From IMG/VR virus record IMGVR_UViG_3300008339_004850, positions 1-21,803 of that record: a DNA stretch of 21,803 nt. The stretch is one strand, 5' to 3'. This DNA comes from a virus. Below, piece by piece: positions 2,012-16,294 of the stretch (the first letter of the stretch is position 1; every line of letters starts with the position of its first letter). Made by a program: the position numbers and the translations under genes. The notes beneath the pieces were generated by a model. That model had not been told where the DNA came from. It made no database searches and saw nothing but the letters and a program-made list of their open reading frames with translations.

Positions 2012-2611
2012 ATGAAAATAGAAACAGTAAAAATAAGCGCAGTAAAAAGCAATCCAAATAACCCAAGAATTATTAAAGATGACAAATTTAAAAAACTTGT
2101 AACATCAATAAAAGAATTTCCACAAATGTTGGATATAAGACCAATAGTTGTAAATGATGAAATGATAGTGCTTGGTGGCAATATGAGATTAAAGGCTTGT
2201 ATTGAAGCAGGTTTAAAAGAAGTATCAATAATCAAAGCAAGTGAATTGACACCAGAACAACAGAACGAATTTATAATAAAAGACAATGTAGGGTTTGGTG
2301 AATGGAATTGGGATGACTTGGCTAACAGTTGGGACACCGAGCAATTAACTGAATGGGGTATTGATTTGCCAATATTTTTTAATGATAGTGATGAGTTAGG
2401 AACTGATTTTAGTTTAGCAGATGGTGATAAAGCACCATTCCAACAAATAACATTTACACTTGCAGATGAACAGGCAATACAAATACAAAACGCAATAGCA
2501 GATATAAAGCTAACAGATGAATATAAGTATGCTGAAACAATGGGGAATGAAAATAGTAATGGTAATGCACTTTATTTAATTATTATGCAATGGGCAGAGC
2601 AAAAGAAATAA
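2012..2611 (+). CDS. ParB-like nuclease-domain protein (phage type)
   Basis: This 199-residue protein has a ParB/Srx-type N-terminal domain: VKSNPNNPR near residues 11-19, then the conserved RPIVVNDEMIVLGGNMRLKA near 43-62 with the GGNMR signature at 55-59, which in this superfamily binds nucleotide. It lacks the helix-turn-helix and dimerisation domains of partition ParB. The middle is acidic and tryptophan-rich (FGEWNWDDLANSWD, then LTEWGIDLP). The C-terminal part (FTLADEQAIQIQNAI ... GNALYLII) resembles tails on ParB-like proteins that phages keep beside DNA methyltransferases. It is therefore more likely a DNA-modification or nuclease partner than a segregation protein. It overlaps the Mom-like gene by 22 bases, so the two are probably translationally coupled. 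Confidence 0.85.
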   Translation: MKIETVKISAVKSNPNNPRIIKDDKFKKLVTSIKEFPQMLDIRPIVVNDEMIVLGGNMRLKACIEAGLKEVSIIKASELTPEQQNEFIIKDNVGFGEWNWDDLANSWDTEQLTEWGIDLPIFFNDSDELGTDFSLADGDKAPFQQITFTLADEQAIQIQNAIADIKLTDEYKYAETMGNENSNGNALYLIIMQWAEQKK

Positions 2612-3306
2612 TCGTAAAGGTTATACCAAGTAAAATAGCAAATGAGTTTGTAAAGAAAAATCATTATAGCGGTAAGGTAGTGCCAAACTCAACTTTACAC
2701 TTTGGTTGCTTTTTGGATAATCAATTACATGGTGTATTAAGTTATGGAAGCCCAATGGTAAAAGCAAAAGTTATTCATTATGTAGAAAATACAAAATGGA
2801 ATGAAGTAATAGAATTAAATAGAATGGCTTTTGATGATTATTTGCCAAAGTATTCAGAAAGTAGGTGTATAGCAATTACCATAAAGTTAATTAAAAAGAA
2901 TGCACCACATATAAAATGGATTTTAAGTTTTAGCGATGGTAATTTATGTGGAGATGGAACTATTTATAGAGCAAGTGGATTTAAGTTAATAGGTGTAAAC
3001 AAAAACACAAGCACTTATCAAATGCCAAATGGAGAAGTAGTATGCAGTTTAACAAGTTCCGCACATAGAACAAAAGAAAGTAATGGCAAAAGCGGTACAA
3101 GTTGGATAAAAGATAATGGAGGTAAAAAATTAGACGGTTTTCAAATTAGATATATTTACTTAATAGATAAAGCAAATAAAATTACAGTTCCAATATTACC
3201 ATTTAGCAAAATAGATGAAATGGGTGCAGGAATGTATAAAGGGGAAAAGCTAACAATGTTAGAAAGAAAATTGAGCGATGTGGTAGATTCGAACTCCAAC
3301 TCTTAA
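2590..3306 (+). CDS. Mom-like DNA adenine modification protein (GNAT fold)
   Basis: This 238-residue protein resembles phage Mu Mom, which converts adenine in DNA to a carbamoylmethyl form and shields phage DNA from restriction. Visible features are HYSG at residues 25-28, a beta-hairpin with LHGVLSYGSP near 47-55, VIELNRMAF near 73-81 (ELxR motif), and SFSDGNLCGDGTIYRASGF near 113-131. The histidine-tyrosine pair, the arginine of ELNR and the aspartate of FSD agree with residues I recall as important in Mu Mom. The last third (from about residue 155) is extra and unassigned. The start overlaps the ParB-like gene. The last 10 residues (DVVDSNSNS end) are read through DNA complementary to a minus-strand tRNA-like gene, so the C-terminus may be dispensable. 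Substrate and donor are inferred from the family only. Confidence 0.8.
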   Translation: MGRAKEIIVKVIPSKIANEFVKKNHYSGKVVPNSTLHFGCFLDNQLHGVLSYGSPMVKAKVIHYVENTKWNEVIELNRMAFDDYLPKYSESRCIAITIKLIKKNAPHIKWILSFSDGNLCGDGTIYRASGFKLIGVNKNTSTYQMPNGEVVCSLTSSAHRTKESNGKSGTSWIKDNGGKKLDGFQIRYIYLIDKANKITVPILPFSKIDEMGAGMYKGEKLTMLERKLSDVVDSNSNS

Positions 3307-3344
3307 CTGGAATGTTAAGCATGTAACCATTACACTAACATCGC
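3274..3344 (-). tRNA. tRNA-Gly(UCC)-like gene with unusual anticodon arm
   Basis: Read on the minus strand, this 71-base segment folds as a tRNA. The 7-bp acceptor is GCGATGT/ACATCGC. The D-stem is GTGT/ACAT, closing an AATGGTT loop with the conserved GG, and the T-loop is TTCGAAT. Bases reported as glycine identity elements are all present: G1-C72, C2-G71, G3-C70, C35, C36 and U73. The anticodon arm is CTTAAC-ATTCCA-GTTAAG, so it forms either six pairs with a 6-base loop or five pairs with an 8-base loop, not the normal five and seven. The T-stem TGGAG/CTACC has two mismatches and the variable loop is only three bases. CCA is not encoded (CAA follows). It could be a functional odd tRNA, a decaying tRNA or a tRNA-like element. 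It overlaps the end of the Mom-like gene by 33 bases, antisense. Confidence 0.62.
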
Positions 3345-3793: not shown

Positions 3794-4964
3794 TGATACT
3801 CGTTACTTTATTGTAACAGGTGGCAGGGGTTCGGGTAAGTCTTTTGAGATAGGTAGGTTCGCATCACTATTAAGTTATGAACGTGGGCATCGAATATTAT
3901 TTACAAGGCAAACAATGACTTCTGCTCACTTGTCTATTATTCCTGAATTTCAAGAAAAAATAGAACTGCTAAATTTAGAAAACGATTTTGAAATATTAAA
4001 AAGTGAAATAAAAAATAAGCAGTCAGGCAGTGAAATATTATTTAAAGGTTTAAAAACATCAAGCGGTGACCAGACTGCTAACTTAAAATCATTGCAGGGT
4101 GTAACTACATGGATATTGGATGAAGCAGAAGAATTAGTTGATGAAAAAACATTTGATAAAATAAACCTATCAATAAGGCAAAAGGGTAAAAAGAATCGTA
4201 TAATATTAATTTTAAACCCTGCAACCAAAGAACATTGGATATACAAGAAGTTTTTTGAGGAACGAGGGGTTATAGAGGGTTATACTGGCATACATCAAGA
4301 TGCAACCTATATTCATACTACTTATATGAATAACATTGAAAACCTTGATGAATCATTCTTAAACGAAATAGAACGAATAAGAGAAAACAATCCTGCTAAA
4401 TATAAACACATAATATTAGGTGGGTGGGTAAATAAAGCAGAGGGTGTAGTGTTTACCAATTGGACATTTGGTGCATTTAATCCTGATAACCTACAAACTT
4501 CTTTTGGATTGGATTTTGGATTCAGTATTGACCCTGATGCATTGAGTGAAGTAGCTATTGACAAAAAGCATAAGATAATATACGTTAAAGAACACTTGTA
4601 CTCAAATGGTTTAAAAACCCACGTATTAAGCGAAATACTAAAGGATAGAACACAAGGTAAGTTAATCATAGCAGATAGCGCAGAAGACCGTTTAATAGCT
4701 GATTTAAGGCATGCAGGTATAAATATAAGGGCAGTAAAGAAAGGAACTATTGAAAGTGGTATAATACGAATGCAGAACTATAATATAATAGTTGAGCCAA
4801 ATAGCCATAATATAGCAAAGGAACTAAACAACTATGTGTATGCAGATAAAGCAAGCCACATGTATATAGACAATTGGAATCACATGATAGATTCAATTAG
4901 GTATAACGTAATATTTCAACTTGATAACCCAAGTGCAGGTAGATACGCAACAATGAAAATATGA
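3753..4964 (+). CDS. terL: terminase large subunit (packaging ATPase and nuclease)
   Basis: This 403-residue protein is the motor that pumps DNA into the prohead and cuts the concatemer. It has a Walker A GGRGSGKS at residues 23-30, a Walker B WILDEAEE near 120-127 (D123, E124), and a coupling-type ILNPATKEHW near 153-162. The C-terminal RNase H-like nuclease domain shows LDFGFSID at 253-260 (D254), LIIADSAEDR near 305-313 (D308) and HMIDSIRY near 377-384 (D380), a plausible metal-binding acidic set. The layout is like PBSX-type (Terminase_3) enzymes. The start at 3753 keeps the short N-terminal segment before Walker A. The stop overlaps the methyltransferase start (ATGATAG), so those genes are coupled. 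Confidence 0.95.
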   Translation: MIARHKPIWNQLNNDTRYFIVTGGRGSGKSFEIGRFASLLSYERGHRILFTRQTMTSAHLSIIPEFQEKIELLNLENDFEILKSEIKNKQSGSEILFKGLKTSSGDQTANLKSLQGVTTWILDEAEELVDEKTFDKINLSIRQKGKKNRIILILNPATKEHWIYKKFFEERGVIEGYTGIHQDATYIHTTYMNNIENLDESFLNEIERIRENNPAKYKHIILGGWVNKAEGVVFTNWTFGAFNPDNLQTSFGLDFGFSIDPDALSEVAIDKKHKIIYVKEHLYSNGLKTHVLSEILKDRTQGKLIIADSAEDRLIADLRHAGINIRAVKKGTIESGIIRMQNYNIIVEPNSHNIAKELNNYVYADKASHMYIDNWNHMIDSIRYNVIFQLDNPSAGRYATMKI

Positions 4965-5701
4965 TAGAATTAATTAAAGGAGATTGCTTAATTGAAATGC
5001 AAAAAATACCAAGCGGCAGTATTGATGCAATTATTACAGACCCGCCATACGGAACGACTGCTTGTAAATGGGATAGTGTTATTAATTTTGATTTAATGTG
5101 GGAGCAACTTAATAGAATTATTAAAGATAATGGTGCTATTGTTTTATTTGGTAGTGAGCCTTTTAGTAGTGCTTTGCGAATGAGTAATATTAAAAATTAT
5201 AAGTATGATTGGATTTGGGAGAAAAACAGAGGTAGTAACTTTGCTTTAGTTAAATATCAACCTATGAAAGAACACGAAATAGTTAGTGTATTTAGTAAAA
5301 AAACACATAATTATTATTCTATAAAAGAAAAAAGAAAAGGTAAAGGTCTAGAAAGAATTAATGGAAATTACAATATAGGTAAAGCAAGTAACATAACAGG
5401 AATACAACAAAGTATTTGTAATACACAAGGTCAAGAACTTAGAGAGCCTTCTTCAATACAAAAATTTAATACTACTGAAAAAGGAATAGAAAGAGTACAC
5501 CCAACACAGAAACCAATAGCATTAATGGAATACTTAATTAAAACATACACAAACGAAAACGAAACTGTTTTAGATTTTACAATGGGTTCAGGAACTACAG
5601 GTGTAGCTTGTAAACATACAAACAGAAACTTTATAGGAATTGAAATGGATGACAAATATTTTGACATAGCAAATAAAAGAATTAACGAAACACTTTTATA
5701 G
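4961..5701 (+). CDS. DNA methyltransferase, beta class, probably N6-adenine
   Basis: This 246-residue enzyme methylates DNA using S-adenosylmethionine. The catalytic motif IV, TDPPYGT, is at residues 26-32 and precedes the AdoMet-binding motif I, VLDFTMGSGTTG, at 203-214. This catalytic-first order with the recognition region between them (roughly 60-180) defines the beta class. DPPY usually means amino-methylation of adenine. IGIEMDDKYFDIANKRI near 225-241 is the conserved end of the class. It starts four bases before the end of the large terminase and has no restriction partner nearby, so it is an orphan phage methylase, likely for protection from host restriction or for marking DNA at packaging. 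The next gene begins after a 55-base gap containing a promoter-like motif. Confidence 0.93.
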   Translation: MIELIKGDCLIEMQKIPSGSIDAIITDPPYGTTACKWDSVINFDLMWEQLNRIIKDNGAIVLFGSEPFSSALRMSNIKNYKYDWIWEKNRGSNFALVKYQPMKEHEIVSVFSKKTHNYYSIKEKRKGKGLERINGNYNIGKASNITGIQQSICNTQGQELREPSSIQKFNTTEKGIERVHPTQKPIALMEYLIKTYTNENETVLDFTMGSGTTGVACKHTNRNFIGIEMDDKYFDIANKRINETLL

Positions 5702-5722: not shown

Positions 5723-5749
5723 AGCAAAAAAGTAAAAAATTTATATATT
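5723..5749 (+). promoter_or_regulatory. late promoter motif, copy 1 (tail block)
   Basis: AGCAAA at 5723-5728, then 12 bases, then TTATATATT at 5741-5749. The same two blocks with identical 12-base spacing recur at 12614 and 15845. The second block resembles the Bacteroidota -7 box (TAnnTTTG), and the first would sit near -33. Only seven bases separate the motif from the ATG at 5757, so a start site at the usual distance would give a leader of about zero to two bases. The promoter function is inferred from repetition, position and spacing. Confidence 0.62.
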
Positions 5750-5756
5750 AAAGAGA

Positions 5757-6359
5757 ATGAAGTTTGAAAAAATAACCATAGGTCAGTTTATAAAATGCAA
5801 AACTATTGCAGAGTTGGAAACAGACCCATTGAATAGAAACATTAAATTGTTAGCTGAATTGACTAATAAAACTTTTGATGAAATAGAATCGATGCCAATT
5901 GAACAGTTAACGAAATCATTAAAAGCATTTAGTGAAATAGAAAACCTAAATCCTAACGCAAAGGTTAAAATGGATTTTAAAGTAAAGGGTAGGAGGTTTA
6001 AATGTATTTGGCAAACTCAAAAGTTAAAAGCAGCACAGTACATTGATGCAACTTCTTTCTGCAAAGATGAAGCGAATATCATAAACAACATTCACAATAT
6101 ACTTGCAGCGATATGTGTTGAAAAAACTTGGTATGGCAAAGTAAAAAAATATGATGGCACAAACCATAAACAGGTTGCAGACTTGTTTTTAAACCATATG
6201 AAAATTGAGCAGGCTTACCCTATTATGCTTTTTTTTTGCAGGTACTACAAGGAATTAGCAGACAATATCCTAATCTATTTGGAATTGGAGGCGGAGAAAG
6301 CACTGGCGAAAGTGAAGCCAATACTGGACAAACATTCGAAACTAAATGGGGTTGGATAG
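5757..6359 (+). CDS. tail assembly chaperone, zero-frame product
   Basis: This 200-residue protein occupies the place of a lambda gpG-like tail assembly chaperone, just ahead of the tail genes. It is helical and charged (ITIGQFIKCKTIAELETD..., LLAELTNKTFDEIESMP, LTKSLKAFSEIE), with a beta patch MDFKVKGRRFKCIW near residues 71-84. Such chaperones coat the tape measure protein during tail assembly and are absent from the virion. A run of nine T at 6229-6237 lies at codons 158-160. Ribosomes that do not slip there continue in frame for 40 more residues to TAG. The gene follows a promoter-like motif by seven bases, making it the first gene of the tail block. The annotation rests on position, the slippery site and the downstream frame more than on direct family recognition. 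Confidence 0.8.
   Translation: MKFEKITIGQFIKCKTIAELETDPLNRNIKLLAELTNKTFDEIESMPIEQLTKSLKAFSEIENLNPNAKVKMDFKVKGRRFKCIWQTQKLKAAQYIDATSFCKDEANIINNIHNILAAICVEKTWYGKVKKYDGTNHKQVADLFLNHMKIEQAYPIMLFFCRYYKELADNILIYLELEAEKALAKVKPILDKHSKLNGVG
6228..6237 (+). other. programmed -1 ribosomal frameshift site
   Basis: The sequence is CTT TTT TTT T followed by GC in the zero frame. This provides a T-TTT-TTT slippery heptamer on which P- and A-site tRNAs keep pairing after a -1 step. After slipping, reading continues TTG CAG GTA in the frame that stays open to 6508. No strong downstream hairpin is obvious by eye; only a weak 5-bp ATTAG/CTAAT pairing is visible. Confidence 0.85.
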
Positions 6360-6508
6360 TAGCGATAAACAACCTTGCAAACAATGATAGAAGTAAGTGG
6401 GAATACTTTGAAGATATGAACATAATTGAGTTCTTAAACACATTAGTATTTTATAAGGATAAAAGTGAAGATGATAAAATAAAATGGCAAGCGCAGCAAC
6501 GAACATAG
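6236..6508 (+). CDS. tail assembly chaperone, -1 frameshift extension (T-like domain)
   Basis: This is the second half of the chaperone, made as a fusion by slipping at 6229-6237. Joining 5757-6236 to 6236-6508 gives a 250-residue protein (160 from the first frame plus 90). The new part contains WGWIVAINNLANNDRSKWEYF followed by the MNIIEFLNTLVFYKDKSEDD stretch. It resembles the ends of frameshifted chaperones in other phages and probably contacts the tail tube protein. The frame has no good start of its own: only a TTG at 6236 lies at its head, inside the slippery run. It overlaps the next gene by 25 bases. Confidence 0.82.
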   Translation: MQVLQGISRQYPNLFGIGGGESTGESEANTGQTFETKWGWIVAINNLANNDRSKWEYFEDMNIIEFLNTLVFYKDKSEDDKIKWQAQQRT

Positions 6509-7077
6509 GCAGTAAGTATGGCAGTTCACCTGATACCTTTACAAAGGATTTAAAGACTGGTGTTGATGCTGTGTTCTTAAAGTGGGCTGAAGACTCAATT
6601 GGTATAATGCGAAAGATTATAACTACTAAAGCACGAACCAAGCAAGCGAGTACATTAGCATCTGACTTATATCCAAATGTAATTGATAATGGAATACAAA
6701 TAGTAACTACTCAAAATTATTGGGAGTTTGTAGATGAAGGTGTAAAGGGTGTATTTAATAAAGGCAAAGCACCAAATAGTAGATTCAGTTTTAAGAATTT
6801 AGGAGTGCCAAAAGATATGCTTGAAAGTTTTAAGCAATACATAGCACGAACAGGAAGTAAAGGATTAAGAAAACAAACTTTAATCAGAAAGAATAAAAAG
6901 AAACAAGCAGACTTAATAACAAAGGAAGCAATGAGTATGGCAGTAGCAACCAAGATAGGTGGAATAAAACCAATGAACTATGTTGAACCTGCTGTTGGTG
7001 CTAAAAGATTAAAGGTACTAAACAAAGCACTATCAAAAGAAATGGCAACAACAATACGATTAGCAATTATAAAATAA
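6484..7077 (+). CDS. putative tail-completion or minor tail protein
   Basis: This 197-residue basic protein lies between the tail chaperone and the large tail genes. Visible features are YWEFVDEGVKGVFNKGKAPNSRFSFK near residues 79-104, a motif like the 'yweyvdkGtkG...sP..F' segment of HK97 gp10-like tail-completion proteins. A lysine-rich stretch (RKQTLIRKNKKKQADLITKEA) and PMNYVEPAVGAKRL follow. No signal or membrane segment is present. The C-terminus ends in a helix (LNKALSKEMATTIRLAIIK). The assignment is by position and weak motif similarity. It might instead be another neck or tail-tip component. It starts inside the end of the frameshifted chaperone gene. Confidence 0.6.
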   Translation: MASAATNIGSKYGSSPDTFTKDLKTGVDAVFLKWAEDSIGIMRKIITTKARTKQASTLASDLYPNVIDNGIQIVTTQNYWEFVDEGVKGVFNKGKAPNSRFSFKNLGVPKDMLESFKQYIARTGSKGLRKQTLIRKNKKKQADLITKEAMSMAVATKIGGIKPMNYVEPAVGAKRLKVLNKALSKEMATTIRLAIIK

Positions 7078-7086
7078 TTATAAAAT
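7065..7086 (+). repeat. exact 11-bp tandem duplication at a gene junction
   Basis: AATTATAAAAT occurs twice back to back (7065-7075 and 7076-7086). The first copy holds the end of the upstream gene, with its stop TAA at 7075-7077 spanning the join. The second copy leads directly into the ATG at 7088. It probably arose by slippage and sets the spacing between stop and restart. Confidence 0.85.
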
Positions 7087-7087
7087 A

Positions 7088-8257
7088 ATGGCAATAACAA
7101 TAATAACAACACCAAATGCATTTATGGCCGCTTATAACCAAGTGCCATACACAGTTAGTTCAAACAACACTGCACAACCTAACTTTAATTTTATAGTTGA
7201 TGTAAACCAAACAAGTGGAACAAACAACCCATTAGCGAGGCTTAAATATCCAGTGCAACCAAGTTCAGCACAATTAACTTTTGATGTCGGAAACGTATTG
7301 CAAAACTATGTTAGTTATGATTTCAATAATGTTACAGGTATATTTTCTGCTAACACTAATTCACGTTTAAAATACTTTATTCAATTTAGAGAGTTATACG
7401 ATGTAAGTGGAGTTCCTACATTAAGTGGAGTTTTAGCAAGTAATCCAACGACACCAAGTTCAACAAGTTTTAATTTTGCAGGAAACGGAATATTTGATTT
7501 TGAAGACTATACATCATTAGCATATAGAAATTTAAATGTAAGTGGCTTTGGTTATTTATCAAATGCAGGAAGTACCGAAAGAATAGAAAGTAATCAAGAG
7601 AAGTTCTTATATTGGTTAGACCCAAGTCAAGCAGTAAAGTTTATAAAGTACACAGGCGCAACTGGTAATGTAGTTTCAGCAGTTACCTTAACAGCTAACG
7701 AATACTTATTTAACACAAGAGCAGGAAAATACGCACAAGATGTTTTAATAGCAGGTGGCATATCAATCATTGATACTTACAAAGTTGAGTTATTAGGTGT
7801 AACAAGTAACGTATTAGCATCAAGAACATTTAAATTAAACACCGAATGCAGTCAATACCCAACAATAAGACTACATTGGATGAATAAACTTGGTGGATTT
7901 GACTCGTTTAATTTCAATAAGAATCAAATAAACGCAATGGAAATAGAACGAAAGCAGTTTAAAGCACCATTACCAATAGGATATAGCAAACAAGACAGGT
8001 TAAAAACTAACTACAACACTACAATAAACGATAGAATAAGTATAAATAGTGATTGGATTACTGAAGAAGAAAGTATATTACTTGAAGAATTAGCCACATC
8101 ACCTGTAATTTATTTGGAAAGAAGCACAACTGATTTTGTAGCAGTAAACATAACCAACACAAGTTACGAAGTAAAGAACTTTTTAACCGATAGAAGACTG
8201 TTCAACGTATCATTTGACATAGAATATACTTACTCACGTTATAGACAATCGTTATAA
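7088..8257 (+). CDS. tail structural protein, 389 aa, function unassigned
   Basis: This large beta-rich protein has many threonine, serine and asparagine residues (TVSSNNTAQPNFNFIVDVNQTSGTN...) and no signal peptide or coiled coil. The composition and place between the chaperone and the tape measure gene fit a tail tip, baseplate or fibre-attachment protein. Similar proteins stand beside a long partner in Bacteroidota phages, and here the stop shares a base with the start of the 930-residue gene (TAATG). The C-terminal part has WMNKLGGFDSFNFNKNQ near residues 265-281 and a late charged strand-rich section ending FDIEYTYSRYRQSL, compatible with a beta-sandwich. I cannot name the exact role. 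Confidence 0.65.
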   Translation: MAITIITTPNAFMAAYNQVPYTVSSNNTAQPNFNFIVDVNQTSGTNNPLARLKYPVQPSSAQLTFDVGNVLQNYVSYDFNNVTGIFSANTNSRLKYFIQFRELYDVSGVPTLSGVLASNPTTPSSTSFNFAGNGIFDFEDYTSLAYRNLNVSGFGYLSNAGSTERIESNQEKFLYWLDPSQAVKFIKYTGATGNVVSAVTLTANEYLFNTRAGKYAQDVLIAGGISIIDTYKVELLGVTSNVLASRTFKLNTECSQYPTIRLHWMNKLGGFDSFNFNKNQINAMEIERKQFKAPLPIGYSKQDRLKTNYNTTINDRISINSDWITEEESILLEELATSPVIYLERSTTDFVAVNITNTSYEVKNFLTDRRLFNVSFDIEYTYSRYRQSL

Positions 8258-11049
8258 TGAATCAAAATAGATTAGTAATAAACCAAGTAGCAGGAGCAAA
8301 CATAGTTGAATACGAACTTGACTTATATGATGATGTACCTTTACCGATTAACAAGAGTATAATTGATATTCAGAACATAGCTGAACGCAAAAGTGATTTT
8401 ACAAAAACTATTACTTTGCCAGGCACTCATAACAACAATGATATTTTTAGTAATATATTTAATCTTGCAAGGTCAGTAAATAATACTAACACTTATAACT
8501 TTGCTCCTGATTTCAATCCTAATTTAAAGGCAAACGCAATTCTCTATAAGAACGGAATAGCTATGATTGATGGTTATCTTCAGCTAACAAATATAAATGT
8601 GTTAGACAACTATGAAATAGAATATGAAATAGTAATCATTGGTAAGACTGCAAACTTGTTTCAAGACTTGGGTGATAAGAAATTAAGTGAATTAAATTTA
8701 AGTGCTTACAATCACATTTGGAATTTTGAAAACATAGAAGCAAGTTGGTCACCAAGTCACACAAGAGGTTATTACTATGGAATGATAGACTTGGGATTAA
8801 GCAACAACCAAAGAGGATACTATACTGTTGATTGGAAACCACAAATATTTTTAAGAACAATAGTTGAGCAAATATTTAAAGATGCAGGATACAGAATCCA
8901 ATCTAACTTTTTAACAAGTGGGCATTATAATAATTTGGTAGTCCCTTGCACTCAAAATAAATTACTATTGAGTGAAGAACAAGTAAGGGATAATTCATTT
9001 GAAGCAGATAGAATAACAGATAGTAGCCCTATCACATTTGGGTTTGGTGGTTCTGCATCTGTACCTTTAAACAATGTAATACAAGACACAGTTCCTACTG
9101 GTTACGATAACACTACATTTACATTTACTGTTCAAAAAAGTGCTAAATATAGATTTGGTGCTAATATAATCTCACAATGTTCAACTAATGTTTTTTTTGA
9201 ATACGAAATTCAAAGAACAAGAGGAGCAAATACGGATATTATGTTTAAAAGTATAAGCCAATCTTACGACAACTCATTATCAACTCCATCGGTTAGGACA
9301 AGTAAATTTACAACGGAGTTCTATTGCGAAGCAGGAGATATAATAGAACTTAAATATTTTACTTTAAGATTTTTTACCACAAGCACAGTAAATGTTATTT
9401 TTAAATCAGGTTCTTTTTTTAATGGTGTAATTGATTCAGCTATCGCAGTTGGTGATACTATGTTACTTGCTAATTGTTTGCCAAGTGATGTTAAGCAAAC
9501 TGATTTTTTAGTATCAGTAATTAATCTTTTTAACTTATATATTGAACCTAATCCACTTGACCCTAAAAAACTAATAATAGAGCCACGAGACCAATTTTAT
9601 TTAGAAGAAATAGTTGATTTAACAAGTAAGATAGATGTATCAAGACCGATTGAAATTAAGCCATTATCGGAACTAAAATATAAAGAGTATAACTATCAAA
9701 TGGCAGAAGATAAGGATGCTGCTAATAGTGATTATTTATTAAGATACAACCAACCTTATGGAAGTGCAAAGATACCTATTGTAAATGATTTCGTAAATGA
9801 AACTTTTACAACAAGTGTAGTGTTCGCACCAACACCATTAATAAAATCTAAAAATGATGGTGTGGTGTTTTCTCAAATAGTTTTTAGAGATTCAAGCGGA
9901 AAGAGAACTGATGGCACAAGTAAATTAAGATTACTATACGCAGGTGGATTAAGTGCAAGTTTTGGAACTGATTTCTTTCATTTAAGAGACCCTGATGGAA
10001 GTTATAATTACTTTGATGCCTATCCGTATGTAGGTCATTTAGATGATGTGTTTAACCCAACTTATGATGTTAACTATTATATTCCGAAAGAAGTATTTTA
10101 TACAAACAATTTAGAAGTAGAATATACTGATAACAACCTTTTTAATTTATACCATAAAAAAGGACTTCAAGAGTTAACAAATAAAGATAGTAAAACTATT
10201 ACTTTATATGTAAAATTAAATGAAAACGAAGTAAATAAATTATCATTTAGAAACTATTATTTTATTGATAAACAATACTATCGTTTATATGAAATAGACT
10301 TTGATTCTAATAGCGAAGACCCTGCAAAATTAACATTCTTGAAGTTAGCAGTTGCACCTGTGTTCGTTGGTGATGTTCAAACTTATAATGGTGGTTCGGG
10401 AGAACTTACTTTTTTTAGGAATGTTGACCCAAATGGAAACCAATATGAAAAAGATGTTGACATAAATGTAAGTGGTCAAGAAAACAGAGTGCAGGGTGAA
10501 GCCAACTTAATTAATTCAAATAATAATTTAGTAAATGGCAATTTAATTAATGTTTTAAGTGGGGAAAATAACCAATTAAATAGTGATGGGGGAACTTACA
10601 TAGGCACATCAAATTATACAAGTGTAAGAGCAGGTGAAACAGTAATCAATAATATTGACCAACCATTAGTTGTATCAAGAGTTTTAACGATTTCAGAACT
10701 TCGTACCTTACACACAACACCTGTTCAAATATTAGCATCAACACAAGGATTTTGGACAGAGGTATATGATGCTTATATAACAGTATTCTTCGGTGCAACA
10801 ACACCAAAAACTGCTTATAATAATCATAAGTTACACTTGCAATTTACAGGAGATGGTACTCACATATTAGATTTTGATAATAGTATCACAAGTGTAACAA
10901 CGGCTACAAAACAAAGAGGTATAAATATTAATGATTTACCTTTTAAAAATTTAGCAGTTGAGATACACTCACAAGGGAATTTAGGAGCAGCAGGAAACAG
11001 TCAAATGTTAATAGAATTAGAATATAGATTACACCCAATTATAGTATAA
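8257..11049 (+). CDS. large tail / baseplate-type structural protein, 930 aa
   Basis: This is the largest protein of the window. Its N-terminus contains IDIQNIAERKSDFTKTITLPG near residues 36-56 and NPNLKANAILYKNGIAMIDGYLQL near 88-111, a pattern that recurs in large tail proteins of Bacteroidota phages and looks like a hub or baseplate domain. The middle is beta-rich. Residues about 740-800 are unusually rich in asparagine and glycine (NLINSNNNLVNGNLINVLSG...), as in beta-helical shaft segments of fibres. The final 130 residues (VVSRVLTISELRTLHTTPVQIL...) read as a separate globular beta domain that could bind a surface ligand. It sits between the 389-residue partner and the tape measure gene. 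A combined hub and fibre role is my inference. Confidence 0.7.
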   Translation: MNQNRLVINQVAGANIVEYELDLYDDVPLPINKSIIDIQNIAERKSDFTKTITLPGTHNNNDIFSNIFNLARSVNNTNTYNFAPDFNPNLKANAILYKNGIAMIDGYLQLTNINVLDNYEIEYEIVIIGKTANLFQDLGDKKLSELNLSAYNHIWNFENIEASWSPSHTRGYYYGMIDLGLSNNQRGYYTVDWKPQIFLRTIVEQIFKDAGYRIQSNFLTSGHYNNLVVPCTQNKLLLSEEQVRDNSFEADRITDSSPITFGFGGSASVPLNNVIQDTVPTGYDNTTFTFTVQKSAKYRFGANIISQCSTNVFFEYEIQRTRGANTDIMFKSISQSYDNSLSTPSVRTSKFTTEFYCEAGDIIELKYFTLRFFTTSTVNVIFKSGSFFNGVIDSAIAVGDTMLLANCLPSDVKQTDFLVSVINLFNLYIEPNPLDPKKLIIEPRDQFYLEEIVDLTSKIDVSRPIEIKPLSELKYKEYNYQMAEDKDAANSDYLLRYNQPYGSAKIPIVNDFVNETFTTSVVFAPTPLIKSKNDGVVFSQIVFRDSSGKRTDGTSKLRLLYAGGLSASFGTDFFHLRDPDGSYNYFDAYPYVGHLDDVFNPTYDVNYYIPKEVFYTNNLEVEYTDNNLFNLYHKKGLQELTNKDSKTITLYVKLNENEVNKLSFRNYYFIDKQYYRLYEIDFDSNSEDPAKLTFLKLAVAPVFVGDVQTYNGGSGELTFFRNVDPNGNQYEKDVDINVSGQENRVQGEANLINSNNNLVNGNLINVLSGENNQLNSDGGTYIGTSNYTSVRAGETVINNIDQPLVVSRVLTISELRTLHTTPVQILASTQGFWTEVYDAYITVFFGATTPKTAYNNHKLHLQFTGDGTHILDFDNSITSVTTATKQRGININDLPFKNLAVEIHSQGNLGAAGNSQMLIELEYRLHPIIV

Positions 11050-12605
11050 TGGCAACAGAGAAAATAATATTTGACACCGAATTAAAGACAGGTAATTCAT
11101 CAAACTCAATAAAGAGTTTAAAATCTGAACTTAAAGATTTAAGAAATCAGTTAGGCACACTTGAACAAGGTAGTGAAGCCTTTATAAAAGCAGCAAGTAA
11201 AGCAGGTGAGTTAAAAGACCAAATTCAAGATATAAGCACAACTATAAATGCGTTTAATCCTGAAGCTAAATTTACAGCATTAGCAAACGTTGTTGGTGTA
11301 GCAGCAAATGGATTTGCAGCGATGCAAGGTGCAATGGCTTTAATGGGTAATGAGAGTGAAGACTTAAACAAGGTAATGGCAAAAACACAAGGTGCTATTG
11401 CTTTGTCAACTGGTTTAAATGGCTTGCTTGGTATGAAGGATGCATTTAAATTATTAGGTGCACAAGTAATTCAATTAATACCAAGACTACAAGCAATGGG
11501 TGCTGCTATGGTTGGTGCGGTTACAGGTGGTATAGCAATTGCATTAGTTTTAATTATAGCATATTGGAAAGACTTAAAATTCTTAATTACAGGAACTATT
11601 GATGAAGTTAAATTATCTTCAGAGGAGATGCTTAATGCTGTAAAAAAAGGGCATGAAGAATATAAAAAAGCAGCAAATGAAAGAATAGCAATAGCAGAAC
11701 GTGAAGCCAAACTAAAACTAAAAGGCAAAGAATTAGACATTGAACTTGCAAGACTTGACAAAGAAAGAAAAATAACTGAAGCAGTAACAAGTGGAAAACT
11801 TGCAAGCGAGAAAGAATTAATTGAAGCAGAATATCAAAAAGCAGTCAAAGATATAAAAGATAAATATGCAAAAGACGAAGAAACAAAAAGAAAAGAAAAA
11901 AATAAAAGAGATGATGACTATGCTAAACAAAGGGCATTAGACATACAAAAAGTTGAAGAAGGAAACAGAGAAGCAGATAGGGCAATTCAAGATGTTATAG
12001 ATTTTAATAAGGAAGAAGATAGAAAGAAAAAAGAGGAAGATGATAAAAAGGCTTTAGATAGAAGTAGGGCATTAGCAGCACAGCAAGTTTTAGTAAAACA
12101 AGAACAAGCAGCAGCAGAAAAGCAAATAGATGAAGAAGCATTAGAAGCTAAAAGACAATTATACCAAACAACAAGTAATATACTTGGAACTTTGAGTGAT
12201 TTAGCAGGGAAGCAAACAGAAGAAGGAAAAGTTTTAGCAATAGCACAAGCGACAATAGATACTTATTTAAGTGCAAGTTCAGCCTATGCAGCGGCAGCAA
12301 AGATTGACCCAATAGTATTAGCACCATTAGCAGCAGGAGCAGCAATATTAGCAGGATTCGCAAGAGTGAAAGCAATTGCAGATGTAAAAGTTCCCAATAG
12401 TAGTGGTGGTGGAGGAGGTGGTAATATAACAGCACCAAATATCCCACGTATTCCTCAAACAATGAGTGGAGCAATGCTTAACCAAAACAAACCTTTAGAC
12501 ATAAACAATACTAACCCTGTTGGCAAAGTAATAGTAACTGAAACTGATATCACTGCAACACAAGACAAAGTTAAGGGAATCATACGCAAGGCAACTATCA
12601 AATAA
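11049..12605 (+). CDS. tail tape measure protein, short form
   Basis: This 518-residue protein is helical, alanine- and lysine-rich, and sets tail length. The N-terminus carries a coiled-coil (SLKSELKDLRNQLGTLEQGSEAF...). Residues about 149-174 form a hydrophobic membrane-like segment (MVGAVTGGIAIALVLIIAYW), typical of tape measure proteins that pass into the host envelope. A long charged coiled coil follows (about 190-375), then an alanine-rich hydrophobic stretch (about 400-450), a poly-glycine linker, and a C-terminal VIVTETDITATQDKVKGII end. At roughly 1.5 angstroms per residue, 518 residues would give a tail near 75-80 nm; this is an estimate from the general rule. Its start overlaps the previous stop. 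It is the last gene of the tail block. Confidence 0.85.
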   Translation: MATEKIIFDTELKTGNSSNSIKSLKSELKDLRNQLGTLEQGSEAFIKAASKAGELKDQIQDISTTINAFNPEAKFTALANVVGVAANGFAAMQGAMALMGNESEDLNKVMAKTQGAIALSTGLNGLLGMKDAFKLLGAQVIQLIPRLQAMGAAMVGAVTGGIAIALVLIIAYWKDLKFLITGTIDEVKLSSEEMLNAVKKGHEEYKKAANERIAIAEREAKLKLKGKELDIELARLDKERKITEAVTSGKLASEKELIEAEYQKAVKDIKDKYAKDEETKRKEKNKRDDDYAKQRALDIQKVEEGNREADRAIQDVIDFNKEEDRKKKEEDDKKALDRSRALAAQQVLVKQEQAAAEKQIDEEALEAKRQLYQTTSNILGTLSDLAGKQTEEGKVLAIAQATIDTYLSASSAYAAAAKIDPIVLAPLAAGAAILAGFARVKAIADVKVPNSSGGGGGGNITAPNIPRIPQTMSGAMLNQNKPLDINNTNPVGKVIVTETDITATQDKVKGIIRKATIK

Positions 12606-12613
12606 TTCTAAAA

Positions 12614-12640
12614 AGCAAATACTAAAATAATTTATATTTA
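12614..12640 (+). promoter_or_regulatory. late promoter motif, copy 2 (head block)
   Basis: AGCAAA at 12614-12619, 12 bases, then TTATATTTA at 12632-12640. TATATTTA matches seven of eight positions of the Bacteroidota -7 consensus TAnnTTTG. The ATG of the protease gene follows after seven bases, exactly as in copy 1, so the transcript would be leaderless or nearly so. No obvious terminator lies between it and the tape measure gene, so read-through from the tail block probably adds to expression. Confidence 0.65.
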
Positions 12641-12647
12641 ATAAAGA

Positions 12648-13646
12648 ATGGACAAATTACCTATTTACAGATTCATAGTTTTAGAAGATGATGAAGCGCA
12701 ATTAGAAGCAGTTGCGTTTGTTGATGCTCCTGCAATAGAAATGAACTGGCAAGCATTCAATGCACAGGTTAATATTATAGTTTGTAAAGAGTGCGGACAT
12801 TCGTGGGATATTTTAGATGGTGGCGAGTATCCTTATATGTGTAAATGTGGGGTTGATAATACACCAACAAAAGAAAGTTTTGAAAGCTATACTGACTATC
12901 CAAAAGAAGCAAGTGAGAACGCACAAATAGCTTTGGATTATGCAGAGAAAAATGGTTGGGGTGATTGTGGCACTGATGTAGGTAAGCAAAGAGCAAACCA
13001 ATTAGCAAAAAGAGAACCAATCAGTAGAGATACTATTGCGAGAATGGCATCTTTTGAAAGACAAAGACAGAACAGCGATAGAAAGTTAGGCGATGGATGT
13101 GGTCGTTTAATGTGGCTTGCTTGGGGTGGTGATGCAGGAGTAGAATGGGCATCAAGAAAACTTGCACAGATAGACAAAAAAAGTTTTTTTAAGTTCAAAG
13201 CAGACACAGAAAAACGTATAATATCTGGCCCATTAATGGTTGCAGATTTACCAATATATCGCAGAACAGAAGATGAAGAATATTATGGTGTTTTTCAAAA
13301 AGAAGACATTTATAATTTAAGAAATAAGTTCTTTAAACAAGGTAAAAGTAATTTGGTAAATGAGATGCACAACAGCAATAAAATGATTGATGGAGTGTAT
13401 ATGATTGAATCATTTTTAATTGATGAAGAACGTGGAATATTAGCACCAAAAGGTTATAACTTAACTGATGGTAGTTGGTTCGGTTCTTATAAAATAGATA
13501 ATGATGAAGTTTGGAATGACTTTATAAAAAGTGGTGAGTTTAAAGGATTTTCAGTTGAGGGAATATTTAACACAGTTAAGATTGATGAAAAGCCACAAAC
13601 AATAATAGAGGATATAATTAATATAATCAAAAACATAAATGAATAA
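12648..13646 (+). CDS. XkdF-type prohead protease with N-terminal zinc-ribbon and GGDAG domains
   Basis: This 332-residue protein has a C-terminal part (from about residue 188) that matches the XkdF / S78_2 family of capsid maturation serine proteases: ISGPLMVADLPIYRR, FQKEDIYNLRNKFF, NEMHN with H241, and FKGFSVEG with S302. The H and S are the likely catalytic pair. Before it come two extra domains. The first is a zinc ribbon-like segment VCKECGHSW...MCKCG with cysteines at 46, 49, 65 and 67; the second pair is spaced CxC rather than CxxC. The second (about 79-174) has GTDVGKQRANQLAKREPIS and RLMWLAWGGDAGVEWA, seen as an add-on domain in many phage head proteins but without an established function that I know. 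The gene overlaps the scaffold gene by eight bases and heads the head block after promoter copy 2. Confidence 0.85.
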   Translation: MDKLPIYRFIVLEDDEAQLEAVAFVDAPAIEMNWQAFNAQVNIIVCKECGHSWDILDGGEYPYMCKCGVDNTPTKESFESYTDYPKEASENAQIALDYAEKNGWGDCGTDVGKQRANQLAKREPISRDTIARMASFERQRQNSDRKLGDGCGRLMWLAWGGDAGVEWASRKLAQIDKKSFFKFKADTEKRIISGPLMVADLPIYRRTEDEEYYGVFQKEDIYNLRNKFFKQGKSNLVNEMHNSNKMIDGVYMIESFLIDEERGILAPKGYNLTDGSWFGSYKIDNDEVWNDFIKSGEFKGFSVEGIFNTVKIDEKPQTIIEDIINIIKNINE

Positions 13647-14229
13647 ACCTAAATTAACAGCCAAAGAAGCTATAATGCAAATTGGCAATTTATTAAAAAT
13701 GGATTTTGCAAAAGTAGAGAAATTCGAAAAAGCAAAATTATCAGATGGCACAGTGATTATGTGGGAAGGTGAATTATCAGAAGGAACTGCAATTATGGTA
13801 GTTGCAGAAGATGGTAACCAAATGCCTGCACCTGATGCTAAACACGAGTTAGAAGATGGCACAATAGTAACCACAGTTGGTGGATTAGTAACTGCAATCG
13901 AACCTAAAAAAGAAGTAGAAGTAGAAGTTGAGTTAGCAGAAATGCCTACTATGAAAATGATGGAAGAAAGAATGGCATCTTGCGAAAACAAGATGAAAGA
14001 AATGGAAACCAAAATGGCTGAAATGTTCTCAAACTACGAAAACAAAATTGAAGAAATGGTAAAAAGCAATATGGGTAAGTTTGAAGCAATTAGTAAAATC
14101 GTAGAAGAAATTGCAGCAGAACCAATCGTAGTTGTAGACGCACCAAAGAACACAACATTCAGCAAAAAAGAACGTACAATGTCAACTATTGAACGTATCG
14201 CAGCATACAAAAAATTACAAAACAAATAA
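13639..14229 (+). CDS. putative capsid scaffold protein
   Basis: This 196-residue protein lies between the prohead protease and the major capsid gene, where scaffolds usually sit. It is acidic and methionine-rich. Residues 33-90 contain beta-like repeats built on DGT (LSDGTVIMWEGELSEGTAIMVVAEDG, LEDGTIVTTVGGLVTAI). Residues about 103-159 form a long coiled coil (MMEERMASCENKMKEMETKMAEM...). A short basic tail (STIERIAAYKKLQNK) could bind capsid protein, as scaffold C-termini do. This is an inference from position and composition; no enzyme motif is present. It should be degraded by the neighbouring protease during maturation. Confidence 0.75.
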   Translation: MNKPKLTAKEAIMQIGNLLKMDFAKVEKFEKAKLSDGTVIMWEGELSEGTAIMVVAEDGNQMPAPDAKHELEDGTIVTTVGGLVTAIEPKKEVEVEVELAEMPTMKMMEERMASCENKMKEMETKMAEMFSNYENKIEEMVKSNMGKFEAISKIVEEIAAEPIVVVDAPKNTTFSKKERTMSTIERIAAYKKLQNK

Positions 14230-14252
14230 ACTAAAAACAAAAACTAAACAAA

Positions 14253-15194
14253 ATGGCATTTAACGTAACAGCCCTTGCGGCATACACAAAGACCAACGAA
14301 AACTTGTTGGTAACTCGTTCGTTTTTCGAACCTAAAACTGCATCAAGAATGCAAATCTTAACAGGTGTTAAGTCAACTATTCAAGTACCTGCTTTATCTG
14401 ATTCATTAATTTGGCAAAATGGTGACAATTGTGGTTTCACTGCAAGTGGTGACACAACTATTTCTGCTCGTGTTTTAACAGTAGGTAGAATTAAAGTAAA
14501 CAAAGAATGGTGTATTAATGATTTAGAAACTAAATACACTCAATTATTGTTATCTCCAGGTTCTAATTATGATGCATTGCCAGGCGGTATTGATGCAGCA
14601 TTCGTAGAAACTATTTTAGGAACTACAAAAGAAGATGTTGAGAAAGCAATTTGGAGAGGTGACACAGCAAGTGCAAGTTCACAATTGAAGCAATTTGATG
14701 GTTTGGTAAAAATCATTAATGCAGCATCAGGAACAGTACAAGCAAACGCAACTCCTTTTATTGCAACTGCGGTTACTGCAATCACAGCAGCAAATATTAT
14801 CTCGGTAGTACAAGCAGTTTATTCCGCAATACCTGTTGAGATTTTAGATAAGCCTAACTTGACAGTTTATATGGGTGTAGACAACTTTAGAACTTATCAA
14901 TTAGCTTTAACAAATGCTAACTTGTTTAACTTCATTGCAACTGATAACGCATTAGGTGAAATGAAGATTCACGGTACTAACGTGACTATCGTTTCAACTC
15001 CAGGCTTAACAGGAACAAACGCAATCTATGCTTTAAGAGATTCAAATATGTTCTTGGGTGTTGATTTAGAAAACGAACAAGAAGACTTCAAATTTTGGTA
15101 TTCAGAAGATTTCGATTTAGTTCGTTTTAAATACAGAACTAAATTAGGTGTTCAAGTTTCTCAAGTAGCAGAAATCGTTAAATTCACAATTTAA
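14253..15194 (+). CDS. major capsid protein
   Basis: This 313-residue protein is the main shell subunit, presumably HK97-fold. It follows the protease and scaffold genes and is followed by a strong terminator, as expected for a very highly expressed gene. It has the usual layout: a short N-terminal arm, then TASRMQILTGVKSTIQVPALSD near residues 29-50, a glycine-rich beta section, and an internal helix EDVEKAIWRGD near 127-137. It ends with DLVRFKYRTKLGVQVSQVAEIVKF, typical of capsid C-termini in Bacteroidota phages. No cleaved delta domain is obvious because the protein is short and a separate scaffold is present. Its codon use is more C- and G-ending (GAAATCGTT, GGTGAC) than in neighbouring genes, consistent with high expression. 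Confidence 0.88.
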   Translation: MAFNVTALAAYTKTNENLLVTRSFFEPKTASRMQILTGVKSTIQVPALSDSLIWQNGDNCGFTASGDTTISARVLTVGRIKVNKEWCINDLETKYTQLLLSPGSNYDALPGGIDAAFVETILGTTKEDVEKAIWRGDTASASSQLKQFDGLVKIINAASGTVQANATPFIATAVTAITAANIISVVQAVYSAIPVEILDKPNLTVYMGVDNFRTYQLALTNANLFNFIATDNALGEMKIHGTNVTIVSTPGLTGTNAIYALRDSNMFLGVDLENEQEDFKFWYSEDFDLVRFKYRTKLGVQVSQVAEIVKFTI

Positions 15195-15200
15195 TTCACA

Positions 15201-15233
15201 AAAGGGTAGCAGCAAATAGTTGTTACCCTTTTT
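15201..15233 (+). terminator. Rho-independent terminator after the major capsid gene
   Basis: A 13-bp stem AAAGGGTAGCAGC / GTTGTTACCCTTT (two G-T pairs, none mismatched) closes an AAATA loop, and a T run follows. It begins seven bases after the capsid stop codon. Because the next gene has no visible promoter of its own, it probably allows partial read-through and lowers downstream expression. Confidence 0.92.
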
Positions 15234-15251
15234 AAAACCCCATTTAAAATT

Positions 15252-15770
15252 ATGCCATGTGCAATAGTAGCGGGATATAGTCTCGATTGTAAGGACACCG
15301 TAGGCGGGATTAAGAGCCTATATATAACAGAACAAGCAAACATCACAGCAGTAACAGAAAATGCGAGTGGTTATGTAACAGCAATAACTAAAGCAGCAGG
15401 TAAGAAATATTTTCTTTATGCTTTAGAGCCAAGAGGTGCAAATAGCACTACTAATAACATTCAAACTGACCCTGCAATAGGAACAGTAGCATACGAACAA
15501 ACAATCGCAGCTACGTTTTTAAAGATGGCTTTTGATACCCAATTTAAATTACAACAAATTATTAAAAACAGAACATCGATAATTGTTGAAATGAAATCAG
15601 GTCAATTCTTTTTATTCGGTAGTTCATTCGGTATGGAATGTACTGGTGGAACAGGAACTTCAGGAGCAGCACTAAATGAATTCAATGGTTACTCATTAAC
15701 TTTTGCAGGTATGGAAAAAGTATTTGCACAAGAGGTTGACCCTGCAATAATAGCAGCATTGTTAGTGTAA
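15252..15770 (+). CDS. putative tail-tube or other abundant structural protein, 172 aa
   Basis: This protein begins MPCAIVAGYSLDCKDTVGGIKSLYI and ends with a pattern GTSGAALNEFNGYSLTFAGMEKVFA, a closing glycine-rich hairpin that resembles tail tube-like proteins. It has a beta-rich middle (IIVEMKSGQFFLFGSSFGM) and no signal peptide. I recognise it as a family common in Bacteroidota phages but without an agreed name. Its isolation is notable: a terminator lies before it and another after it, with only 18 bases between the first terminator's T run and the start codon. Tail tube is my best guess from fold-like features and likely high copy number. A capsid decoration protein is the main alternative. 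Confidence 0.6.
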   Translation: MPCAIVAGYSLDCKDTVGGIKSLYITEQANITAVTENASGYVTAITKAAGKKYFLYALEPRGANSTTNNIQTDPAIGTVAYEQTIAATFLKMAFDTQFKLQQIIKNRTSIIVEMKSGQFFLFGSSFGMECTGGTGTSGAALNEFNGYSLTFAGMEKVFAQEVDPAIIAALLV

Positions 15771-15793
15771 TTATTTTTCATTGTTTTCATAGC

Positions 15794-15828
15794 AAAAAGC
15801 CAACTTATTAATTTAGGTTGGTTTTTTT
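15794..15828 (+). terminator. Rho-independent terminator before the portal block
   Basis: AAAAAGCCAAC pairs with GTTGGTTTTTT (five A-T, one G-T, five CCAAC/GTTGG pairs) around a 12-base loop, followed by further T. It separates the head block from the third promoter motif, which begins 16 bases downstream. Confidence 0.85.
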
Positions 15829-15844
15829 GTTTTAAACTATGTTT

Positions 15845-15871
15845 AGCAAACTTTTTTATTTTTTATATTTA
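15845..15871 (+). promoter_or_regulatory. late promoter motif, copy 3 (portal block)
   Basis: AGCAAA at 15845-15850, 12 bases, then TTATATTTA at 15863-15871. It lies directly after a terminator, which strengthens the promoter reading. The GTG start at 15878 is six bases downstream, so the mRNA would begin at or within a base or two of the start codon. The flank TTTAGCAAA is shared with copy 1. Confidence 0.68.
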
Positions 15872-15877
15872 TAGTTA

Positions 15878-16294
15878 GTGATAAGATTCTTAAAAAATAG
15901 CACAAACAATGTAGTAGTAACTTTGACCGAAAATTCAACAGTTACTAATCCTATTTATTTGTTTTTGTTTACCAATCAAACATCAAATGTGAATTACTAT
16001 TTTATAGGTACTGACACAAGCGCATACAAAACAAGATACAATAAGTTTAGTATAGTTGAGAAAACAAGTGCAAACACTTTAAATGGCGAAGTTACGTTAG
16101 GTTTAAAGGGTTATTATAACTATAAGGTATATCAAACATCATTAGCGAATACAAGTGGACTTGCAAACGCAGCAGCAGCAGTTCCATTTATTACTAAAAC
16201 AGTTGAAGTTGGTGTAGTGGATGTTGTTTTTGATGCTATTACTAACACGGAATACGATGTTCAAGATGAAACTAATATAATTTACCAACCATAA
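15878..16294 (+). CDS. structural protein, 138 aa, function unassigned (GTG start)
   Basis: This small beta-rich protein starts VTLTENSTVTNPIYLFLFTNQ, then FIGTDTSAYKTRYNKFSIVE and GEVTLGLKGYYNYKVYQT. This pattern (DTS.YK.RYN.F and G.v.L...G.Y.Y.vY) occurs in a family widespread in Bacteroidota phages and looks immunoglobulin-like. No enzymatic motif or signal peptide is present. The only suitable start is the GTG at 15878; the protein then begins MIRFLKNSTNN, as family members do. It follows promoter copy 3 by six bases and is the first gene of the portal block, just before the portal gene. A neck, decoration or adhesion role is possible but not shown. Confidence 0.65.
   Translation: MIRFLKNSTNNVVVTLTENSTVTNPIYLFLFTNQTSNVNYYFIGTDTSAYKTRYNKFSIVEKTSANTLNGEVTLGLKGYYNYKVYQTSLANTSGLANAAAAVPFITKTVEVGVVDVVFDAITNTEYDVQDETNIIYQP

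Follow-up and report, generated by a model that had tools for sequence, protein, structure and literature searches.

Candidate bipartite late promoters and a predicted ECF-like sigma factor in a family of siphovirus-like phages with a probable Bacteroidota host

Late promoters of phage T4 consist of a lone -10 element (TATAAATA) and rely on clamp-dependent activation. The system proposed here would resemble that of T4 gp55 in using a phage sigma-family protein for late genes; a T4-type late promoter with a -10 only was rejected as a model because a -35 block is conserved across the lineages described below. A late activator of the RinA/ArpU type, with a single region-4-like HTH and no region 2, was likewise rejected because the candidate protein has a region-2-like domain too. 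Salmonella phage 7-11 encodes the sigma factor SaPh711_gp47, with late promoters of the form GTAAtg-(16)-aCTA (PMC8948821), and gp36 of phiEco32 is a phage sigma of middle and late promoters that have a single element, tAATGTAtA, and no -35 (PMC4331800, PMC8948821). In Bacteroidota, promoters of the primary sigma carry TTTG near -33 and TAHHTTTG at -7 (PMC6847099), and the promoters of flavobacterial cellular ECF sigma factors (motif SM6) contain CGT in the -10 (PMC9723704). For Bacteroidota siphophages, no description of late transcription control was found in open-licence papers.

The window analysed here (the whole stretch of DNA, a linear virus contig of 21,803 bases) carries three copies of a two-block element. 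As in phage 7-11, a small phage sigma with region 4 would be matched with bipartite promoters before structural blocks: motif-bearing relatives encode a sigma-like protein, and a repeated bipartite element stands before the late operons. Unlike 7-11, the element reads A[AG]CAA-(13)-TTATAT, the genome is siphovirus-like, the host is probably a member of the Bacteroidota and the placement is near-leaderless. A phage sigma as promoter reader would also be shared with phiEco32, although here there are two blocks. An AT-rich downstream box at a similar position recalls the Bacteroidota primary-sigma promoter, which was nevertheless rejected as the class of these sites because AGCAAA replaces TTTG, the box ends in A/T and not G, and the spacing is different. 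The predicted two-domain sigma fold is that of the flavobacterial ECF system, whereas the CGT of SM6 is absent from the -10 of the window family and present in the P12024S sites discussed below. We take the AAC-like -35 to fit the usual ECF -35, and the A[AG]C-N16-TATA geometry presumably fits ECF-type promoters. By analogy, the system would work like that of 7-11, with a new recognition sequence and geometry and a predicted pairing of sigma and promoter.

The two-block element in the window and in close relatives

An exact search of both strands of the window for AGCAAA-N12-TTATATWTW returned three matches, all on the plus strand (5723-5749, 12614-12640 and 15845-15871), and no further copy on either strand, in agreement with a first-pass annotation that had listed the same three copies with their 12-base spacing. 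The comparison with a shuffled background that it had proposed gave a mean of 0.01 matches per shuffle (100 dinucleotide shuffles) against the three observed, and when two mismatches were tolerated only three extra sites appeared, all weak. The -35-like and -10-like blocks of putative late promoter 1 are AGCAAA at 5723..5728 and TTATATATT at 5741..5749, those of promoter 2 AGCAAA at 12614..12619 and TTATATTTA at 12632..12640, and those of promoter 3 AGCAAA at 15845..15850 and TTATATTTA at 15863..15871. The second block thus reads TATATTTA or TATATATT and at all three sites is without the G that is almost always present in the TAHHTTTG box of the host. The gap between motif end and start codon is 7-8 nt (ATG 5757, ATG 12648 and GTG 15878), with AGCAAA at about -34/-33 relative to the start codon. 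A generic sigma-70 promoter scan returned fewer matches than shuffles and was uninformative for the window.

The suggestion that the copies open tail, head and portal blocks was borne out by the genes behind them, all on the plus strand, with a tape-measure protein, a protease/capsid region and a portal in the respective blocks. The tail block (5757-12605), which contains the tape-measure protein, begins 7 nt past the motif with a 200-aa gene without a family match (5757..6359); in each of the five lineages the ortholog is preceded by the element at an unchanged distance. The head block (12648 onward) starts with the gene of a head maturation protease (Peptidase_S78_2/XkdF-like, 12648..13646; Pfam PF14550, E 2.2e-10), and the capsid region comes after it. 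The portal block opens with a 138-aa gene with a GTG start (15878..16294), the ortholog of which carries the element or at least the -10 in the five lineages, and the portal gene follows directly, starting at 16298. A terminator scan placed an intrinsic terminator immediately 5' of site 3 (15794..15827, plus strand), and a strong hairpin with a U-run occupies this place in 5/5 lineages, with stem sequences that differ between them.

Two further features of this region were observed. Past the capsid gene lies another hairpin that resembles a terminator and has a T-run (15201-15233); it was seen by eye and is not in the output of the automatic scan. The protease (12648-13646) contains an internal stretch with cysteine pairs (residues ~45-178) that is absent from the ortholog in the relative G002 and matches phrog_2859 over residues 84-178, and is apparently an inserted domain.

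The capsid protein was used to gather relatives, which gave 52 contigs, mostly 74-98% identical. Across this set and the window, AGCAAA-N12-TTATATW, the core of the motif, has 77 coding-strand matches and none on the opposite strand, and all 77 sit 32-35 nt 5' of a start codon. Three relatives, taken as complete because their ends overlap exactly or with one mismatch (G001, 34.3 kb; G002, 34.8 kb; G009, 31.8 kb), have exactly three copies each, ahead of the same three genes, and no copy in reverse orientation or match to a backwards control pattern. In an unconditioned test, upstream regions were picked by gene homology alone, not by motif, and distinct sequences were counted. A[AG]CAA-N13-TTATAT was present upstream of the homologs of the 5757 gene in 9/9 sequences (the -10-like block there is conserved in a comparison anchored on the start codon) and of the 12648 gene in 20/20, and a slightly looser element upstream of the 15878 gene in 28/28, of which 25 have AGCAA; in eight control-gene sets the strict element was found 0 times and the looser form at most once per set. 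Close relatives departing from AGCAA read AACAA instead, and the spacer sequence diverges among relatives whereas both blocks stay constant. The motif is retained together with the gene order, against the loss in relatives that had been named as a possible refutation.

The surroundings of site 1 vary. In the window, terminase and site 1 have a methyltransferase gene (4961-5701) between them, but in G002 the terminase stop codon and site 1 overlap; the element thus travels with the tail gene despite a differing terminase-side neighbourhood.

The methyltransferase, of the N6/N4 type, is absent between terminase and tail gene in G002, which suggests that this modification gene was gained or lost recently. 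Elsewhere in the window, two adjoining glycosyltransferase genes (family 2 and PLOD-type GT; 389-1782) are conserved just before the packaging genes, and a Mom-family DNA modification gene lies at 2590-3306. A minus-strand tRNA-like gene (3273-3344) overlaps the 3' end of the Mom-family gene and is the same in the window and four other records; its anticodon loop is abnormal (6 or 8 nt), ARAGORN assigned it no anticodon, and it is possibly a frameshift-type or decayed tRNA.

A sigma-like protein and concerted change of the -10

The first-pass annotation had placed a phage-encoded or phage-modified sigma or activator outside the window, and the relatives do encode a sigma-like protein about 1.14 kb upstream of the equivalent of base 1. 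In G002 the gene lies at 11847-12338 (TTG start, 163 aa); base 13476 of G002 aligns with base 1 of the window, which leaves 1,137 bp between the end of the gene and the window. Orthologs of ~160 aa occupy the same locus in every motif-bearing record covering that locus, a co-occurrence that partly reflects shared ancestry, and no relative without the gene was found that could serve as a negative control. Read from these relatives, the phage of the present record would carry its own copy upstream of the window. In G009 and G019, a host-type TTG-N17-23-TAnnTTTG sits 8-10 nt before the sigma start, which is no more than a hint; the pattern has no genome-wide enrichment.

An alignment of 16 sequences of the protein has about 45 invariant columns. 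The AlphaFold2 model of the 163-aa protein (mean pLDDT 78) consists of two helical domains, with helices in residues 1-76 and 100-154 and a low-confidence linker at 77-97. The best Foldseek matches in the PDB are sigma factors, headed by the mycobacterial ECF sigma L (E 7.9e-4, probability 1.00). In structural superposition, residues ~1-80 align with sigma region 2 structures at an rmsd of about 2.5-3 and residues ~97-158 with region 4 structures at an rmsd of about 3; the Z scores, 6-8, are intermediate for helical proteins and carry weight only jointly with other evidence. Sequence profiles gave a PHROG RNA polymerase sigma factor match (E 7.8e-4, residues 26-150), a match to a cellular ECF sigma of Bacteroidales (hhalign, E 1e-7) and Pfam matches to Sigma70_r2 (E 0.007) and r4_2 (E 0.08), both under the curated cut-offs; a PDB sequence search with the sigma profile returned only a weak TyrR HTH match. 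In the predicted fold a linker connects region 2 to region 4 and no other sigma region is present, which is the ECF-type layout. CGT in the -10 is typical of ECF sigma promoters, although not universal, and is absent from the -10 of the five lineages, which read TTATAT, ATATAT or TCTATTT; we therefore name the protein only ECF-like. Fold model and profiles together point to a two-domain ECF-like sigma factor of ~160 aa. The sole match of the sigma profile in 84,980 bacterial and archaeal genomes (L150) was rejected as an ordinary cellular ECF sigma, beside cellular genes and not in a prophage, and tblastn of the sigma in cultured phages returned three weak faecal fragments only, and none with a lineage-C query.

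Searching with the sigma profile reaches four further phage lineages (B-E, in addition to lineage A of the window), in which the sigma is 40-50% identical and the two-block element recurs at much the same distance ahead of the orthologous tail, protease and 15878 genes. The A[AG]CAA core of the -35 is common to the lineages and the -10 box is lineage-specific, reading TTATATTATA in lineage B (G012, G013), TTATATATTA in lineage C (G016, G023), TCTATTTRT in lineage D (G019-G021) and ATATATTATT in lineage E (G015, G017, G018, G022). Complete genomes of lineage A have three sites each, and lineage C has four to five per genome (five in G016, one of them before the small terminase), and at the third site of lineage E the -10 is kept and the -35 core missing. 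To avoid selection bias, -10 similarity was measured on an alignment anchored on the start codon, not on the motif: it was 0.97 between sites within a genome versus 0.82 for orthologous sites across lineages (control genes 0.63-0.70), a within-genome versus between-lineage difference reached in 0/5000 permutations. The -35 zone is similar everywhere (0.83-0.89 versus 0.66-0.69); the -35 of site 1 shares sequence with the end of the terminase gene in some lineages, where coding constraint may help to conserve it. The concerted change of the -10 at all sites of a genome points to one trans-acting reader per genome with a shifting -10 preference, which would explain the pattern directly.

The cultured Nonlabens phage P12024S (L169, JQ823122) may be a second example of the same design. 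It encodes a sigma-region-2 protein, P12024S_33, before the terminase (Pfam E 1.4e-5, above the cut-off) and AAAC-N16-18-CGTTA elements at seven places (146, 2998, 5379, 21248, 23929, 25168 and 26769) lie 11-12 nt upstream of start codons; the pattern has 9 matches on both strands, compared with 0.76 in one-strand shuffles. An hhalign comparison of the sigma profile with P12024S_33 gave no support for orthology, and the parallel is therefore held as an analogy.

A late-promoter model and competing explanations

Taken from sequence, the three sites are probably bipartite late promoters, read by the host core RNA polymerase with the phage two-domain ECF-like sigma encoded ~1.14 kb upstream of the window; we infer that the sigma binds here, where transcripts start and when. 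Each promoter would be made up of a -35 AGCAAA, a 12-nt spacer and a -10 TTATATWTW, with the -35 read by the C-terminal HTH (region 4) of the sigma and the -10 by its N-terminal region 2. Expression of the sigma gene would fall early or in mid-infection, and the sigma would then turn on the tail, head and portal blocks. In F. johnsoniae, the promoter box runs from T-12 to G-5 and is 4-5 nt away from the start site (PMC6847099); with TATATTTA aligned to this box, transcription would begin 2-3 nt upstream of the start codon and AGCAAA would occupy about -31 to -26. The position near -33 that the first-pass annotation gave for the first block accordingly holds when counted from the start codon, but not from this predicted start site. 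With only 7-8 nt from the -10 to the start codon, the late messages would have little or no leader. Leaderless genes are marked by TA-like signals about 10 nt upstream of their start codons (PMC3160421), and the TA-rich -10 block here ends 7-8 nt before the start codon. In F. psychrophilum, only 5.5% of mapped mRNAs are leaderless (PMC9723704).

A different reader is conceivable, namely the host primary sigma (sigma-ABfr) with AGCAAA as the binding site of an assisting phage activator; there is precedent for small HTH activators of late genes in phages. The second block had been likened to the Bacteroidota -7 box, and TATATTTA does resemble TAHHTTTG (PMC6847099), but the final, nearly invariant G is missing at 3/3 sites and the block is better read as the -10 of a phage sigma. 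A constant host sigma would not drive a -10 that diverges across lineages yet changes in concert within genomes, and the candidate protein has a region 2 fold besides region 4, so that we regard this explanation as unlikely.

Two accounts without a promoter carry still less weight. The presence of the element at only three genes per complete genome, with its -35 block ~34 nt upstream and outside the usual initiation region, argues against a translation-initiation element of a few highly expressed genes, as do the terminator directly before site 3 in five lineages and a two-block geometry with concerted change; we judge this role very improbable, even though the distance to the start codon is fixed and Bacteroidota use A-rich Kozak-like signals and not Shine-Dalgarno (PMC6847099). 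Functionless inherited sequence, kept by coding overlap or recent common ancestry, would suit site 1, where block and terminase stop codon overlap in several lineages, but hardly sites 2 and 3, which are non-coding. Spacers diverge where the blocks remain, and the element stays with the tail gene both in the window, with the methyltransferase between, and in G002, with the terminase-stop overlap; there is scarcely any chance that inheritance alone accounts for it.

Host and significance

A search with the capsid protein for relatives in 84,980 bacterial and archaeal genomes found none and so gave no host assignment. Among cultured phages, the portal matches only phages infecting a flavobacterium, and the Shine-Dalgarno signals of the genes are at or little above chance; for these two reasons a Bacteroidota host is likely.

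On balance, we lean towards an undescribed class of Bacteroidota siphophages that combines an ECF-like sigma, leaderless structural mRNAs, a fixed -35 and a -10 rewritten regulon-wide in each lineage, to which the CGT promoters of P12024S would be parallel or related. The phage ECF-like sigma and its sites provide a specific candidate factor, with its targets, for late control in Bacteroidota siphophages, and leaderless late mRNAs are predicted in a phylum whose cellular mRNAs seldom lack a leader. In the five lineages, the -10 specificity of the sigma and the whole regulon appear to have changed together; if true, this would be a natural series of sigma-promoter co-evolution, and it could supply Bacteroidota, in which standard promoters do not work, with an orthogonal sigma-promoter pair.
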